This document shows positions 1 through 5,672 of a stretch of 5,672 nucleotides of DNA, piece after piece. The stretch spans positions 1 through 5,672 of the forward strand of contig JAGVEU010000115.1 of NCBI GenBank assembly GCA_020057985.1, written 5' to 3'. The notes under the pieces are model-generated. The model had not been told where the DNA came from and did not search any database. It worked only from the letters and a program-made list of their open reading frames with translations. The stretch comes from Calditrichota bacterium. GTDB taxonomy: Bacteria; Electryoneota; RPQS01. Positions within the stretch are counted from its first letter, which is position 1. Every line of letters starts with the position of its first letter. A program made the position numbers and the translations under genes.

Positions 1-930
1 AGCCGCGTGGCAGGTTCGGCAAAGCGATCTTAGGTGAGGGACTTGCTCAGCAGCTGGTCTGTCACAGAATTCGTAGGTGATGTGATGAACCTCTTCGGCG
101 GGCAGTTTGCAAAAGACGCAGAGAAAATTGTCCATTTGCTTCCGCAGTTCTTTCGCCTTTTTATCCTCTGTTTCATCCATTTCGCGATAGTCTTCAAACA
201 TAGTTGGTCTGCGAAGCGATTTTTCTACGGGTGCTTGTATTTCTGTGGTTATGAGATAGCGCGGCCGATAGTCCCAAAAGCCGTAAACAATCGGCACATC
301 GTACACCAAACGCATTTCTTTCGATGTTGGTTGATCGATATGGAGATCCATTACTACTGGCAAACTGACTTCTGGTTCGTGCCAGTGATCTCGGCATCGC
401 CACGGCACAGCACGCAATGAGCAAAGAACATCGGAACTGTCTACTGCCTTCATATAGACGGGCGAAGACGGAACGCAACTCTTGCGCCCCAGATAGATCG
501 GCCATCTTGGGTTCTCTAAGGCACTCATATAGGTGTCTATAAGAGTGGCCGAGCCACTAAGAGCAACAATGAACTCGGCATCCACGAGATACTGGCGACG
601 AGAGAGCTGCGTTTCAAACTCGTCAGTATCTTGCGTCTTCTTGATGCCTCCTTGCGCTTTACGTATTCCGTATCCAGCACCTGAGGTGTGATAATCCCAT
701 TGGGGTGTTCCCTGATGATCAAGCCGCACGGCCATCTGCATGGAATGCAGTTCGGGCAAATATTTACGGGAATCTTCCCGGCGAATACCCCTCGCACAAA
801 GTAGCAAGCCCAATACGCCGGATTTGCTCGGGAAGAGATCGGTACGGCGAATCTGATGGCGCGAGGAAGTTCCCCATGATTGCATCGGGCCAGCCAGCCG
901 CAGCAACAATGTATGATTCGGTATGTTCAT
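1..930 (-). CDS. cas5e: Cas5-HNH fusion: type I-E Cas5e (CasD) with C-terminal HNH nuclease (partial, 3' end off window)
   Basis: This frame is open from ATG at 930 to the window edge, giving 310 residues without a stop. Residues 1-235 read as a complete Cas5e, the Cascade subunit that caps the crRNA 5' handle: LLLRLAGPMQSWG near the N-terminus, then PSKSGVLGLLL (~35-45), WDYHTSGAG (~78-86), YLGRKSC (~146-152) and a final PIVYGFWDYRPRYL block (~213-227). A charged helical linker (~236-269, rich in E, K, D, R) leads into an HNH domain from residue 271: C271-x2-C274, VHHITYE (281-287) and LCRTCH (303-308) with C304 and C307. This is the zinc-knuckle HNH pattern of the HHxTY subgroup, which often lacks the central Asn; here H299 stands near that place. 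Plain Cas5e ends at about 220-250 residues, so the HNH is an addition. The start lies 5 nt after the cas7e stop with no strong ribosome site, suggesting translational coupling. Inferred role: target DNA cleavage within Cascade. Confidence 0.93.
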   Translation of the reverse strand, partial: MNIPNHTLLLRLAGPMQSWGTSSRHQIRRTDLFPSKSGVLGLLLCARGIRREDSRKYLPELHSMQMAVRLDHQGTPQWDYHTSGAGYGIRKAQGGIKKTQDTDEFETQLSRRQYLVDAEFIVALSGSATLIDTYMSALENPRWPIYLGRKSCVPSSPVYMKAVDSSDVLCSLRAVPWRCRDHWHEPEVSLPVVMDLHIDQPTSKEMRLVYDVPIVYGFWDYRPRYLITTEIQAPVEKSLRRPTMFEDYREMDETEDKKAKELRKQMDNFLCVFCKLPAEEVHHITYEFCDRPAAEQVPHLRSLCRTCHAA

Positions 931-935
931 CACCG

Positions 936-2303
936 TCAGTCCGTGGCTTTAGATGAGAGTAGAGCTTCAATCCTTTTGACCAGATCTTCGTGCGACGCAA
1001 CGAGTTCACGCGAGGTCGTCAAATCAACCTTCGCGTGACCTACCGCAAGCAAAAGTCGCTTGGTATCTGAGGGCGCGAAGGCCGGTGCAATCTCGTCCAC
1101 ATACCATACTAACGCCTTGGCAGACTCGGTCATGAAATTCTTCTCCAAGCCTCCCTTCACAGGCTGTAAAAATGCGTTAGCATAACTTTGCGGACGGCGA
1201 ACGGAAGAAATTTCCACCAGAATAAGCTCTGGTGCACTCGGATTGGCCATGCTGGTTTGCCTGCCACTGCTGGGGTGTTTGCCATTAAGTTGCACTCTTT
1301 CCGAACCGGGATGACTGTTGGAAGCCACGCCTGCAAACACAGAGATCGCATGCGCCAATTCAGCGGTTGTCAATGTGCTGACATTATCATTAAGCGCTTG
1401 CATGTCTACGTTGAAGTACTTGTAGAAGACTGAAGAACAAAAGAAGTTTTCCTGCTCTCCTGATCCGATGTAACTTGCTCCGGATTTAGCCACCTGACCG
1501 TCAACGTATTCGTGTTTTAGGTCGTCCATGGCCGTGAACCAGTCGCTTTCAATGAAAGCATCGTGTGTTCCAATGGCATGGGCAACCTGACACGCTGCGT
1601 CCACATTCACAACCAGATCGCTGGTAGTCATCCTGCCGAATAGCCCAACGTCAACAGTGAACTCCTTGCTGGCAGTTGTGATCTTTTCTAAGAAGGACTT
1701 GAGTTCCTTGCTTTTCTTGTCTTGTGCTTTTTCTTCACCTCCCGCTTCTTGACTTTGCTCTTTGACGGTATCGTTCTCTTCACTATTTTTCTTCTTGTCT
1801 TTTGCCTTCGGCGGGGTCAAGAACTCCTCATAGACTTTCTTCTGATTGTTTCGTATCTCGACGATATGTTCAGCCGTTCGCATCGCAAATTGCTTTGGAA
1901 AGTACACAAGTTGACCGGTCACACCCGGGTCCTTGTCTTCGGATTTTGACTTGTTCTTCTTCCCCGGTTCTGTGCTCTTGTCCGATTTTGTGTCCTTGGG
2001 CTCAGATTTGAATTGCTTCGAGAGTGCGTTTAGAATTTTCACGAGTTCGTCTTCTGAAAACTCGTCTTTGCCGGAGCGCAGTACATCCGCGACCATTCGT
2101 GGAAAGTAAACTGTCCGATGTGAACGCGCATCTGTAAGCAAGTTGTCAAATTCTGGCGAAAAGCGGATGGTGCGTTTCAGGCATTGACTACTAATCCGAG
2201 CGCGCGTTACGCCTCCGAACAAACATTGTTTCGGCTGGCCAATGTCATCCCGGTTTACGTTACCCGGAGCAATTGACTGAAGGACATGAATCTGTACGAA
2301 CAT
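936..2303 (-). CDS. cas7e: Cas7e (Cse4/CasC), type I-E Cascade backbone subunit with charged inserts
   Basis: This is the Cas7 backbone protein of type I-E Cascade, which polymerises along the crRNA spacer. The family signature is clear: VQIHVLQS followed by NRDDIGQPK and GGVTRARISSQCLKR (residues 3-44), DVGLFGRM (218-225), VDAACQVAHAIGTH (234-247), WFTAMDDL (255-262), and SSVFYKYFNVD (290-300). The protein has 455 residues against 363 in E. coli CasC. Two lysine/glutamate/serine-rich low-complexity stretches (~99-127 and ~163-201) account for much of the excess. They lie between the N-terminal motifs and the LFGRM block, in the region that forms the helical fingers in E. coli Cas7. An AAAGGA ribosome site at 2311-2316 sits 7 nt before the ATG. 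The gene starts 26 nt after cas8e and ends 5 nt before cas5e, so the three form one operon. In canonical type I-E operons cse2 (cas11) lies directly before this gene; here it does not. Confidence 0.96.
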   Translation of the reverse strand: MFVQIHVLQSIAPGNVNRDDIGQPKQCLFGGVTRARISSQCLKRTIRFSPEFDNLLTDARSHRTVYFPRMVADVLRSGKDEFSEDELVKILNALSKQFKSEPKDTKSDKSTEPGKKNKSKSEDKDPGVTGQLVYFPKQFAMRTAEHIVEIRNNQKKVYEEFLTPPKAKDKKKNSEENDTVKEQSQEAGGEEKAQDKKSKELKSFLEKITTASKEFTVDVGLFGRMTTSDLVVNVDAACQVAHAIGTHDAFIESDWFTAMDDLKHEYVDGQVAKSGASYIGSGEQENFFCSSVFYKYFNVDMQALNDNVSTLTTAELAHAISVFAGVASNSHPGSERVQLNGKHPSSGRQTSMANPSAPELILVEISSVRRPQSYANAFLQPVKGGLEKNFMTESAKALVWYVDEIAPAFAPSDTKRLLLAVGHAKVDLTTSRELVASHEDLVKRIEALLSSKATD

Positions 2304-2329: not shown

Positions 2330-3946
2330 TCAGGCTACTAATTGATTAAGATCTACGCAAAGTTGAACCCAATTGAACCTTTGAGGATATGGATGCCGTA
2401 TATTCCGCTTAATTTCTGATTGGAGTGTAGCCTCAAGGCGATAGCCACTCGGGAACGCCAGCGGATAAACACGCTTTGCTCTGCGTGGAACCTTTTGCCT
2501 CATAGGAATATTGTGTAGTGGGTTTAGGCCACTTTCATCTGTGTTCCGATAGCCACGTGGAACTTGGGCCAAAAGCTTGAGCAGCAGCCATGCGACGCCA
2601 TGCGATGGCAAGTGGTGCTTTTCTTTTAGGCTCCAGTAGAGACCCGCCAACAGATTAAATGCGGCTGGTCTTTCTTGCATCGCACGCAAGGATGCACCTG
2701 CAAGTTTGGACCAATCGCCATCGGACAAGTGGTTTGTCGCAGCCTGAATGAATTGCTGTATACCCTTCTCGCCATAAGATCTCGCCGGTAGTTGCCACCC
2801 TTCAGGCAGGCTGGGCATTCTTTTTACCAACTTTGGAATTGACCGAAGGATGCTGTCTGTACTGAATTCCTGCAGATCCACAACTCGATGATCATAGGTC
2901 TTGGCGTTCCCCGGAGTTGAAGGAACAATAAGGATCCAACCGCGATGATCTGGATTCGCCTGCACGACTGATGCATATGCGAATCCTCTCTTGTCTATGA
3001 GTTTTCCAATGTCCCTCTCCTCTGCAGCAATTACATCGCTGCCTGACGTCATGGCCTTAAACTTCTCGTCTTTATAGAACGCTGCCGGGTCCTTCCATTT
3101 CGGCGCCCTTGACTTTGTATAGTCGTTCTTCTTGTAAACTATCTTTCCGATGCCTACCGTCCCACGCTGGCCGCAGTACCAACAAATATCCACTTTCGTT
3201 GGCTTTCCCAAGTGGATCCGACGCGGATTCCAAGTGAAGCCTTCCATATAGGGTATAGTCTCACCGTCGGGGAGTGGTTCATAGTGCCCGGACCAATGAG
3301 CTTCGCCTGCTGGGATGTCTAGCGTTACAAGATTAAGACCAAGTGTTTCTGCAAGGTTCGATCCTAATGCCAGTGCAATGATAGGCGGTGCCTTGTGTAT
3401 AGCTGCCGAAAGCCCTTGTCCGCCTTGCTGGGACCACGGCACAACACGCAGCATTCCGAACGTAGTACAGCGTAAGCAAAGTTGTGCGCGCTTGTCGTCA
3501 CCGTGATGAAAATGTGCGATATTGGTTCCTACCGCAAATTCTGAGAACAGAGAACCCGCTGAATACGGCTTCTTCGTATTCCGAGCCGTAAGGTCTTGCA
3601 GGAATGGCACTTGATCATCAAACATGCGGAACGAAGACGCTGAATCCCTAAGGTTGTTGAGCAGACTCGCTGGTACTTCGCCGCTTAGTAGCGATTCTCT
3701 GACCTGTATCACACCTCCCGCCATATCCGCCTTCCAATAAAGCAGAGTCAAGAGGAACCGGTGGGCAGCGAATAGGTCCAGTGGGCTTGCAGCAGCGATA
3801 CAACGGATCTCGCTCGCTCTCTTAAGGGCTTCAAATGGAGAGTAGACTTGAGACTCAGCATTCAAATCCACTATCTCCAGCCAGCAACTATTGAGTACGT
3901 TCCAGTCCTCTTCAAGAAGGTTGTATGCTTCTGTCTTTTGTGGCAT
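2330..3946 (-). CDS. cas8e: Cas8e (Cse1/CasA), large subunit of type I-E Cascade
   Basis: This is the large subunit of type I-E Cascade, which recognises the PAM and, in ordinary systems, recruits Cas3. Supporting features are PFLQD (114-118), the paired cysteines C157-x2-C160 and C255-x2-C258 that match the two CxxC pairs of CasA (probable zinc site), LNLVTLDIP (204-212, like LNVLTLP in E. coli), GFTWNPRRIHL (236-246), and a helical C-terminal region from ~395. Length is 538 residues (E. coli CasA 502). The tail from ~460 is very basic (PMRQKVPRRAKR at 481-492) and I see no close resemblance there to CasA. The start has an excellent ribosome site (AAAGGAG at 3952-3958, 5 nt before the ATG). 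It is the first gene of the cas operon; upstream lie a zinc-ribbon gene and murQ, not cas3. With no separate cas11 gene present, an internal product from its 3' end is conceivable but unproven. Confidence 0.93.
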   Translation of the reverse strand: MPQKTEAYNLLEEDWNVLNSCWLEIVDLNAESQVYSPFEALKRASEIRCIAAASPLDLFAAHRFLLTLLYWKADMAGGVIQVRESLLSGEVPASLLNNLRDSASSFRMFDDQVPFLQDLTARNTKKPYSAGSLFSEFAVGTNIAHFHHGDDKRAQLCLRCTTFGMLRVVPWSQQGGQGLSAAIHKAPPIIALALGSNLAETLGLNLVTLDIPAGEAHWSGHYEPLPDGETIPYMEGFTWNPRRIHLGKPTKVDICWYCGQRGTVGIGKIVYKKNDYTKSRAPKWKDPAAFYKDEKFKAMTSGSDVIAAEERDIGKLIDKRGFAYASVVQANPDHRGWILIVPSTPGNAKTYDHRVVDLQEFSTDSILRSIPKLVKRMPSLPEGWQLPARSYGEKGIQQFIQAATNHLSDGDWSKLAGASLRAMQERPAAFNLLAGLYWSLKEKHHLPSHGVAWLLLKLLAQVPRGYRNTDESGLNPLHNIPMRQKVPRRAKRVYPLAFPSGYRLEATLQSEIKRNIRHPYPQRFNWVQLCVDLNQLVA

Positions 3947-4077: not shown

Positions 4078-4470
4078 TTATTCGTAGCGAACGTGTTTGC
4101 TGTAGGGATCCTCGGTCCAGTCGTTATTGCGGCACTTGGGGCAGCGGGCAGAAGCACTGAAACGGAAGTGTCCGCCGCAGCCGCACAGGCCAGTATGCTC
4201 TTCGACTTTTTGATCGTATTCCTCTTCCGAAATCGGCTCGCCGGCGAAGTTTTTACTGATGAATTTGTCGCTCTTGCGCGTGGAATGGGCATAGGGGCCG
4301 CCGAGGCCTTTGAGATAAGCCGCATGGAGATCGCCGAGTTCTTCAAACGAAATACTCTTTGCTTGTCCGCACGTTTCACAGTGCAGCACGTGAAACGCGG
4401 AGCCGCCGCCGGCGTCCACCATGAATTTCGTACCGCATTGGTTGCAAATCGCACCGAAGGATTGACCCAT
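4078..4470 (-). CDS. Small double zinc-ribbon protein, function unknown
   Basis: This 130-residue soluble protein has two apparent zinc ribbons. The first uses C9-x2-C12 and C31-x2-C34 (CNQC, CETC); the second, near the C-terminus, uses C96-x-C98 (CGCGG) and C110-x2-C113 (CPKC). The middle (~40-92) is acidic and helical, without membrane segments. I do not recognise a named family. Paired ribbons of this type occur in nucleic-acid-associated and metal-binding proteins, but no catalytic motif supports a reaction. An AAAGGA ribosome site at 4476-4481 lies 5 nt before the ATG, and the gene begins 26 nt after the murQ stop, so it is very likely the last gene of the murQ operon. There is no evidence linking it to the CRISPR system beyond being next to it, across a 131-bp spacer. 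Confidence 0.8.
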   Translation of the reverse strand: MGQSFGAICNQCGTKFMVDAGGGSAFHVLHCETCGQAKSISFEELGDLHAAYLKGLGGPYAHSTRKSDKFISKNFAGEPISEEEYDQKVEEHTGLCGCGGHFRFSASARCPKCRNNDWTEDPYSKHVRYE

Positions 4471-4496: not shown

Positions 4497-5477
4497 TCAT
4501 TTCTTGTTTTCAAGCGCCGTCCGCACCACTCCGCCGCAATCATCAAGTAATTCTCGGGCGCGCTCGGCACTCATGTTTTTGAAGTGCATGACGAGGGCGG
4601 TCTTGAGTTCACCACGGGCGGATTTCAGGATTTCGTCGGCCCATTCGTAGTCGCTGTCGGTTAACTCCATGAAGATTCGTCTGGATCGTGCCCGGAGTTT
4701 TTCTGATCCGGTTCGCAAGTCTACCATGAGGTTTTCGTAGCATTTACCAAGCTGAATCATGGCCGTTGTGGTTAGCATGTTCAAGACCAGCTTGGTGGCT
4801 GTTCCGGCTTTTAGGCGGGTGGATCCAGTCAGGATTTCGGGGCCGACGGGGAGGCTGATGACGATGTCAGCGATGTCCAACGATGAACGATGAACGATGA
4901 ACGATGATTCCGTTTCTGATTTCGGATTTCTGGTTTCGGATTTTGCTTCCGGTGGATCGTTGCAGATGATGTAGATGGTTTTGGCACCACGCTCGGATGC
5001 GTATTTCAGGGCACCGAGGACGTATGGTGTTCTGCGTGAGGCTGTTATTCCACACGCAACGTCTGTTTTGTTTATACAACAGACGTCGAGGTCGTGGGCG
5101 GCTTGTTCAGAATCGTCTTCTGCTCCTTCAATTGCTTTGAAAACAGCACCTTGACCACCTGCAATAAAGCCTTGCACCATCCACGGCTCCACTCCAAAGG
5201 TGGGCGGGCATTCGGAAGCATCGAGTATTCCCAGACGGCCAGAGGTCCCGGCACCTACATAGAAAAGGCGACCATCATTGCGAAAAGCCTCGACAACGAG
5301 ATTCACCGCCTGCTCAATTTGAGGTAATGCGGCAGCTACGATCTCTGGCACAGCACGGTCTTCGCGGTTCATGGCTTCGAGAATCTCGCGCACAGACATG
5401 GAATCGAGATTCATTGTGGCCGGATTGCGGGCTTCGGTGGTTAGTTGCTTTAGTTCCTCGAGAACACTTCTACTCAC
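4497..5477 (-). CDS. murQ: N-acetylmuramic acid 6-phosphate etherase (MurQ)
   Basis: MurQ is a cytoplasmic SIS-domain enzyme that cleaves the lactyl ether of MurNAc-6-phosphate, giving GlcNAc-6-phosphate and D-lactate in peptidoglycan recycling. Counting from the GTG at 5477 (326 residues), the signature blocks are TTEARNPAT (13-21), VGAGTSGRLGILDASE (74-89), EGAEDD (117-122), GPEILTGSTRLKAGTA (212-227) and NLMVDL (249-254). The acidic residues in DASE and EGAED correspond to the catalytic glutamates of the E. coli enzyme. I chose the GTG at 5477 because AAAGGA at 5484-5489 sits 6 nt upstream and the overlap with the preceding gene is then only 8 nt; an in-frame GTG at 5510 would add 11 residues. 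Two oddities appear: about 23 residues encoded by tandem repeats are inserted at ~177-199, and the conserved ASGRTPY loop reads ASRRTPY. E. coli MurQ has 298 residues, so the insertion explains most of the extra length. Confidence 0.95.
   Translation of the reverse strand: MSRSVLEELKQLTTEARNPATMNLDSMSVREILEAMNREDRAVPEIVAAALPQIEQAVNLVVEAFRNDGRLFYVGAGTSGRLGILDASECPPTFGVEPWMVQGFIAGGQGAVFKAIEGAEDDSEQAAHDLDVCCINKTDVACGITASRRTPYVLGALKYASERGAKTIYIICNDPPEAKSETRNPKSETESSFIVHRSSLDIADIVISLPVGPEILTGSTRLKAGTATKLVLNMLTTTAMIQLGKCYENLMVDLRTGSEKLRARSRRIFMELTDSDYEWADEILKSARGELKTALVMHFKNMSAERARELLDDCGGVVRTALENKK
4879..4948 (-). repeat. Short tandem repeats inserted in frame within murQ
   Basis: Two adjacent tandem repeats lie inside murQ. 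AACGATG (plus strand) is repeated four times without error at 4879-4906, encoding FIVHRSS-type residues on the minus strand. Beside it (about 4911-4948) a ~14-base unit, minus strand GAAATCCGAAATCA, occurs about two and a half times with changes and encodes KSETRNPKSET. Together they supply roughly 23 residues that other MurQ proteins lack. Their reading frame is preserved. I recall similar RNPKSE and FIVHRSS peptides in genomes of planctomycete-like and other uncultivated bacteria, which makes this a likely dispersed repeat. Confidence 0.8.
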
Positions 5478-5672
5478 TTTCCGTCCTTTCCAATAGCAAA
5501 AGGCGCCCACCAGTAGTAAGTGGTCGCTCTATGATCAACCTCAGACTCAGTGACGCGAAATCGGCTTCCTTTTTCCAGTCAGTTCCTTTCCACAGAATCC
5601 AATTTCCGGACGGCTTCACAAGGCGATTCGTCCACCTAATCAGGTCAGGAAGCTCAGCGACAGCCTTGGCTG
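5470..5672 (-). CDS. rsmG: Probable RsmG-like 16S rRNA methyltransferase, C-terminal fragment
   Basis: Only the last 66 residues are in the window; the gene runs off the right edge. The fragment begins AKAVAELPDLIRW, followed by LVKPSGNWILWKG, then a lysine/glutamate-rich helix and a final strand GGRLLLLER. This matches the end of RsmG (GidB), the SAM-dependent enzyme that makes m7G in 16S rRNA, where a SRAFASL-type motif is followed by a GRFYALKG-type strand and a C-terminal HLVVI-type strand. The SAM-binding part is not visible, so another class I methyltransferase remains possible. The stop (TAG, 5470-5472) overlaps the murQ GTG start by 8 nt, indicating translational coupling in a shared operon. 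Confidence 0.68.
   Translation of the reverse strand, partial: AKAVAELPDLIRWTNRLVKPSGNWILWKGTDWKKEADFASLSLRLIIERPLTTGGRLLLLERTESE

Follow-up and report, generated by a model that had tools for sequence, protein, structure and literature searches.

A predicted type I-E2 CRISPR-Cas effector operon with Cas5-HNH and Cas8-Cas11 fusions in a Calditrichota bacterium

Introduction

Type I CRISPR-Cas effectors normally require Cas3 in addition to the multi-protein Cascade. A class of type I-E systems in which Cas5 carries an HNH domain has been published (Altae-Tran 2023, PMC10910872) and is called I-E2 (Makarova 2025, PMC12669027). For the Cloacimonetes system, the former paper shows double-strand cutting by the HNH domain, guided by CRISPR RNA (crRNA) and without Cas3 (PMC10910872), and in the solved Cas5-HNH Cascade the HNH domain occupies the belly of the complex, with Cas6 and Cas11 on either side (PMC11822464). 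A single sentence of Altae-Tran 2023 states that cas8 is fused to cas11 in some Cas5-HNH cases (PMC10910872); the accessible passages of that paper are silent on loss of the Cas8 bundle and on the frequency and origin of the fusion, and our literature search returned no account of the I-E2 Cas8-Cas11 fusion beyond that sentence. Here, we describe such a locus on a contig from a Calditrichota bacterium (JAGVEU010000115.1; G000:C275), the complete 5672 bases of which are referred to as the window. We consider it very probable that the window holds a type I-E2 effector operon, with Cas5e-HNH and Cas8e-Cas11, the products of which would bind crRNA-matched DNA and cut both strands without Cas3.

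An earlier note on this DNA had singled out the fusion of Cas5 to HNH. Since the Cas5-HNH class is already published (PMC10910872), that fusion alone is less surprising than the note held. Cas5-HNH is thus known already, and what is added here is the proposal that Cas11 has replaced the Cas8 bundle, together with an argument on one-to-one stoichiometry.

Gene order and comparison with described systems

The genome to which the contig is assigned comprises 2.89 Mb in 537 contigs and is 56.5% complete, a scope that applies to all searches of this genome reported below. On the minus strand, the window reads murQ, a gene for a zinc-ribbon-like protein, cas8, cas7 and cas5, the last running off the end. 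Cas8e and Cas7e share the operon with cas5e-HNH, a trait of I-E2 systems. The operon comprises the following features (aa, amino acids).

1..930, minus strand: cas5e-HNH, 310 codons, 3' end beyond the contig (open frame; phmmer match to 8yb6_A; TIGR01868)
367..912, minus strand: Cas5e domain of cas5e-HNH, residues 7-188 in ATG numbering (TIGR01868, 8-189 in GTG numbering)
1..132, minus strand: HNH domain, truncated, residues 267-310 (identity to homologues; alignment to the HNH of 8yb6_A)
936..2303, minus strand: cas7e, 455 aa, with two Lys/Glu-rich insertions (TIGR01869; 8yb6_D; alignment)
2330..3946, minus strand: cas8e-cas11 fusion gene, 538 aa
2819..3913, minus strand: Cas8e (Cse1) part, residues 12-376
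2333..2770, minus strand: Cas11 (Cse2) domain, residues 393-538, replacing the Cse1 C-terminal helical bundle

The Cloacimonetes I-E2 system (PDB 8yb6, 8yha, 8zlu, 8zm3 and 9jxs) resembles the window in its Cas5e-HNH architecture, its HNH residues and the kind of its Cas11, and its Cas7e and Cas8e are the closest solved relatives of those in the window. However, it has separate Cas8 (535 aa) and Cas11 (174 aa) proteins, whereas the window encodes one protein of 538 aa, with no room for the Cas8 C-terminal bundle. Furthermore, its Cas7 has 378 aa compared to the 455 aa of the window protein, which is longer by charged insertions, and its HNH domain reads VQH where that of the window reads VHH. 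The fused Cas5-HNH systems of Altae-Tran 2023 have the same fusion as the window, as far as the one sentence on them tells (PMC10910872). The Selenomonas Cas8-HNH type (PMC11822464), named I-F4 in Makarova 2025 (PMC12669027), likewise has a built-in HNH domain and no Cas3, but carries the domain on Cas8f rather than Cas5 and has no Cas11 subunit; its HNH domain replaces the Cas8 helical bundle equivalent to Cas11 (PMC11822464; PMC11459484). With ordinary I-E systems (Escherichia coli, Thermobifida fusca), the window shares the N-terminal part of Cas8e, Cas7e, Cas5e and the order cas8-cas7-cas5, but it differs from them in having HNH on Cas5, in lacking a separate cas11 and the Cse1 C-terminal bundle, and in that no cas3 lies upstream of cas8 in the window (the downstream side lies beyond the contig).

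Cas7e scores 204.5 bits against the TIGR01869 cut-off of 178.05. Its two low-complexity insertions, at approximately residues 96-130 and 162-207 (window 1683-2018), explain its length; the Cas7 insertions of fused-branch relatives are shorter and variable. We regard the Cas7 insertions as variable charged loops.

The Cas5-HNH fusion

The cas5 frame is open for 310 codons from an ATG at 930, with a GTG at 933 just upstream, and its stop codon is out of sight because the window is the entire contig. The uninterrupted Cas5e-HNH frame of a type I-E Cascade put forward in the earlier note is borne out: the Cas5e part matches TIGR01868 with 167.6 bits (cut-off 68.95; E 3.6e-49), and a single unbroken phmmer match with 8yb6_A, the Cas5-HNH protein of known structure, runs through Cas5 and HNH (residues 2-311, E 4.2e-51), so that the C-terminal part aligns with the HNH domain of a reported Cas5-HNH Cascade. 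The contig sequence has neither a stop codon nor a frameshift between residues 235 and 270, where a break would have spoken against the join according to that note. The three motifs that it had listed are located at residues 271-274 (CxxC, here CVFC; window 120-109), 281-287 (VHHITYE; 90-70) and 303-308 (LCRTCH; 24-7).

For comparison, we used the best 120 of 2533 Cas5 homologues with E <= 1e-3 (343-393 aa), 34 of which were included in alignment A1. Identity to these 120 is 49-64% (median 55) over the HNH stretch (residues 262-311, GTG numbering) and has a median of 51 over the Cas5 part, the best value over the full Cas5-HNH stretch being 51.5%; a contig-truncated Cas5 piece from locus L018 is 69% identical over 89 residues. 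By these comparisons, the window protein is a divergent member of the Cas5-HNH group. All 120 homologues share eight HNH residues with the window, namely, D267, C271, C274, H283, Y286, C304, C307 and H308 (ATG numbering), and a loose HNH motif fits 119 of the 120. H308, the His that ends LCRTCH, is Ala in 9jxs_B, a deposited structure bound to double-stranded DNA, where the substitution was presumably introduced to stop cutting. Of the profile searches that the earlier note had proposed, the one for Cas5e thus succeeded, whereas the Pfam HNH model did not match the truncated window sequence; the same model gave weak matches in 26 of 35 aligned members (best E 6e-4).

The homologues extend beyond the truncated window protein by 33-78 residues (median 66), and therefore the end of the HNH domain and the tail are the portion missing from the window. 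The leftward extension to the stop codon envisaged in the earlier note failed, as a protein search of the window's own genome returned this contig alone. Cas6, the expected next gene, had no match in this genome either.

The Cas8-Cas11 fusion

The similarity to unfused Cas8 ends at residue 358 of the cas8e-cas11 product, and the remaining chain is Cas11. A linker of approximately 16 residues (377-392) connects the Cas8e part to the Cas11 domain. Comparison of the profile of the fused Cas11 domain (A3, from an alignment of 13 of the 14 other fused loci, without L018) with unfused Cas8 gave a probability of 2.9, and the C-terminal helical bundle that is a trait of ordinary I-E Cas8e was not detected in the window protein. 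The gap between cas8 and cas7 is just 26 nucleotides and holds no separate cas11 (cse2) gene, nor was a stand-alone cas11 found in the incomplete genome; Cas11, a component of I-E2 systems, is present in fused form. Right about Cas5-HNH, the earlier note had missed both this fusion and the lack of cas11 between cas8 and cas7. At least 120 residues of the Cas11 domain are present in 118 of 119 Cas8 homologues (from the best 120 of 250, window excluded), 42 of which entered alignment A2. The predicted Cas11 identity of the domain rests on Cas11 of the Cas5-HNH type and on the predicted fold. Fold searches with the C-terminal domain alone returned no Cse1 chain among the matches listed, which by itself excludes nothing.

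In one related locus, L009, the fused cas8 is immediately preceded (L009:2119-2406) by a 95-aa fragment that matches PF09481 (Cse1) and resembles part of a second Cse1.

Distribution and order of events

Scans of genome contigs and of viral contigs yielded 40 loci and one locus, respectively. The Cas5-HNH motif is present in 16 of these 41 and missing from the Cas5 of 24, and the remaining locus, L018, ends within Cas5. The cas8 gene is visible in 15 of the 16 Cas5-HNH loci and is fused in 13, the other two (L014 and L042) having a separate cas11, but the scans were seeded with relatives of the window and these counts are no measure of fusion frequency among all Cas5-HNH systems. L018 is also fused, and the cas8 of L008 is split over two frames. 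The one Cas5-HNH locus of the viral collection, L042, is an unfused operon, the cas11 frame of which is interrupted in the contig. No separate copy of the domain was found in the 14 genomes with the fused gene (profile A3, E <= 1e-3; many assemblies incomplete). PF09485 matches occur in three of 16 genomes: in an ordinary I-E operon of G042, in the separate cas11 of L014 (G053) and, below the cut-off, inside a 920-aa frame of G052. Both joins, Cas5-HNH and Cas8-Cas11, recur in assemblies titled Planctomycetota, Chloroflexi, Nitrospinaceae and Deltaproteobacteria.

Cas6 was found in 13 of 15 relatives' genomes. Cas1 lies downstream in all four loci checked (L002, L003, L005 and L012) and Cas2 in both checked (L002 and L003), and arrays with a 29-nucleotide repeat and spacers of mostly 32 nucleotides accompany eight of 17 loci; the window's own genome showed no CRISPR repeat pattern. 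The Chloroflexi genome G042 carries two fused Cas5-HNH systems (L003 and L015) and, on another contig, Cas6, Cas11 and Cas3 matches resembling an ordinary I-E operon.

A tree of Cas5 (HNH columns excluded) and Cas7 was built from 27 rows, namely, the window, 16 HNH loci and 10 of the 24 non-HNH loci; L018 was omitted, as only the first 89 residues of its Cas5 are available. On this tree, HNH and the Cas8-Cas11 fusion each require a single change. The fused rows and L004, the cas8 of which lies off its contig, form one side of a branch with support 100/100, L014 and L042 adjoin the fused clade (100/98), and the ten non-HNH rows fall outside. With these ten as the outgroup, HNH was gained first and the fusion followed. 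The window forms a long branch (1.08) inside the fused clade, and the very long branch of L033 is a limit of the tree.

Proposed mechanism and rival explanations

The Cascade encoded by the window would bind crRNA-matched DNA and cut both strands through its own HNH domain, with no Cas3; cutting of this kind may extend to the whole fused branch, by analogy with the Cloacimonetes system. Each Cas5-HNH entry in the PDB has one Cas11 (six chains in six entries) and six Cas7 (48 chains in eight entries), and 5u07, 5u0a and 6c66, which we take to be the T. fusca Cascade, have two Cse2 each (six chains in three entries), all of these counts reflecting what was modelled and not necessarily the actual assembly. 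HNH may have displaced one of the two Cas11 copies present in the ordinary I-E Cascade, which would leave Cas8 and Cas11 at 1:1. With the remaining Cas11 presumably needed one-to-one with Cas8, a merger of the two genes would cost nothing in stoichiometry and Cas8's own C-terminal helical bundle, at the position of which the Cas11 domain is predicted to stand, could be lost. The result would be a four-protein Cascade of Cas8-11, Cas7, Cas5-HNH and Cas6. We thus regard it as reasonably probable that there is a sub-branch of I-E2 in which Cas11 replaced the Cas8 bundle and Cas8, Cas11 and HNH are locked at 1:1:1, HNH having displaced Cas11 first and thereby enabled the merger.

Besides the limit on the chain counts, several observations weigh against the operon working, or having arisen, in this way. 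The end of the cas5e-HNH gene (HNH tail and stop codon), cas6, cas1/2 and the array lie off the contig and were not found in the genome, and therefore the window's system is only predicted to work. Altae-Tran 2023 reports that the system tolerates the absence of Cas11 in human cells, although with reduced activity (PMC10910872). By sequence, the fused domain is linked very weakly to ordinary Cas11 families, with an hhalign probability of 7.7, and PF09485 does not match it. In the structural comparison, one of 18 Cse1 rows (8zlu_C) extends to model residue 510 (root-mean-square deviation, rmsd, 7.2), the Foldseek Cse1 alignments span 465-575 columns at an rmsd of 13-17, and 8yb6_K reaches just E 0.013. 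The order of HNH before fusion depends on two unfused rows only, and when the fused label was shuffled 500 times, the clustering equalled that of the real label in 26 cases. Two genomes (G051 and G045) have Cas3-like matches of 93.1 and 77 bits, below the cut-off given in the next paragraph, not on the Cas5-HNH contig. Finally, in-frame starts recur at two places within the Cas11 domain, in seven of 15 loci each: a GTG at a conserved Val, 17-18 codons into the domain, with a strong Shine-Dalgarno-like stretch twice (-8.4 and -7.6 kcal/mol), and the ATG of Met423, with weak stretches (+1.9 to -5.0). An internal Cas11 start within cas8 is known in some other type I subtypes (I-B, I-C and I-D), and in the window an in-frame ATG with a weak stretch (-4.8 kcal/mol) precedes the aligned domain start by six codons, so that free Cas11 might also be made and the complex keep two copies. 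However, no start position near the junction is common to more than seven of the 15 fused loci, and either product would miss part of the fold, since the GTG falls within helix one of the domain and Met423 follows helix two. Given also the single Cas11 chain per Cas5-HNH Cascade entry, an internal start supplying free Cas11 appears unlikely.

It is more doubtful still that the HNH domain no longer cuts, leaving a DNA binder or a system that relies on Cas3 from elsewhere. The tail of the domain is out of view, and Cas3 does occur in some of the genomes. TIGR01587 is loose for Cas3, matching at E 1e-3 in all 16 genomes and all 14 controls, and therefore only matches above its cut-off (102.45 bits) were counted as Cas3. 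Two of the 16 genomes have such a match, on contigs other than the Cas5-HNH contig, and the two noted above fall somewhat below; yet 14 of the 16, some of them incomplete, have none above the cut-off, and the Cas3 of G042 sits with its separate ordinary I-E operon. The window's own genome has three matches below the cut-off, the best with 45.3 bits. Moreover, the eight invariant HNH residues are kept in the window at the overall identity of 49-64%, and one of them is the His replaced by Ala in 9jxs. An assembly artefact or a one-off event behind either join could be suspected from the short contig, the incomplete and fragmented genome and the lack of Cas5-HNH at E <= 1e-40 in 38 further genomes that were searched from this phylum. 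This explanation is already refuted for practical purposes, since identical joins occur in separate assemblies of the four differently titled groups, nearly all of the Cas8 homologues compared (118/119) hold the domain, and the flanking murQ is 76% identical (71% by tblastn) to that of a same-family genome.

Flanking genes and host context

Upstream of the operon lie two further genes.

4078..4470, minus strand: small zinc-ribbon-like protein, 130 aa, not cas (sub-threshold zinc-ribbon matches only)
4497..5510, minus strand: murQ, N-acetylmuramic acid 6-phosphate etherase (TIGR00274)

MurQ scores 351.5 bits against the TIGR00274 cut-off of 302, and among its 120 listed homologues, three bear the name candidate division KSB1 and two the name Calditrichaeota. 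From the similarities of murQ, the contig likely belongs to its genome bin. Within the phylum, the match in G003 (E 2e-39) is confined to the Cas5 part, and the Cas5-HNH system was likely acquired by transfer. The zinc-ribbon-like gene is absent within approximately 1.5 kb of murQ in three same-family genomes (tblastn E <= 1e-3). At window 4867-4955, murQ has approximately 21 extra residues compared to TIGR00274 (312 residues on 291 positions) and the short direct repeats AACGATGAACGATG and TTTCTGATTTCGGA; as read by eye, the repeats account for the extra residues.

Implications

If the proposed reading is true, the operon would encode a four-protein, self-cutting Cascade that is expected to produce a clean double-strand break and would be a compact candidate for study. 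The fused branch would also provide a readable order of events, with the nuclease gained first and the subunits merged thereafter, and a direct test of the Cas11 copy number.
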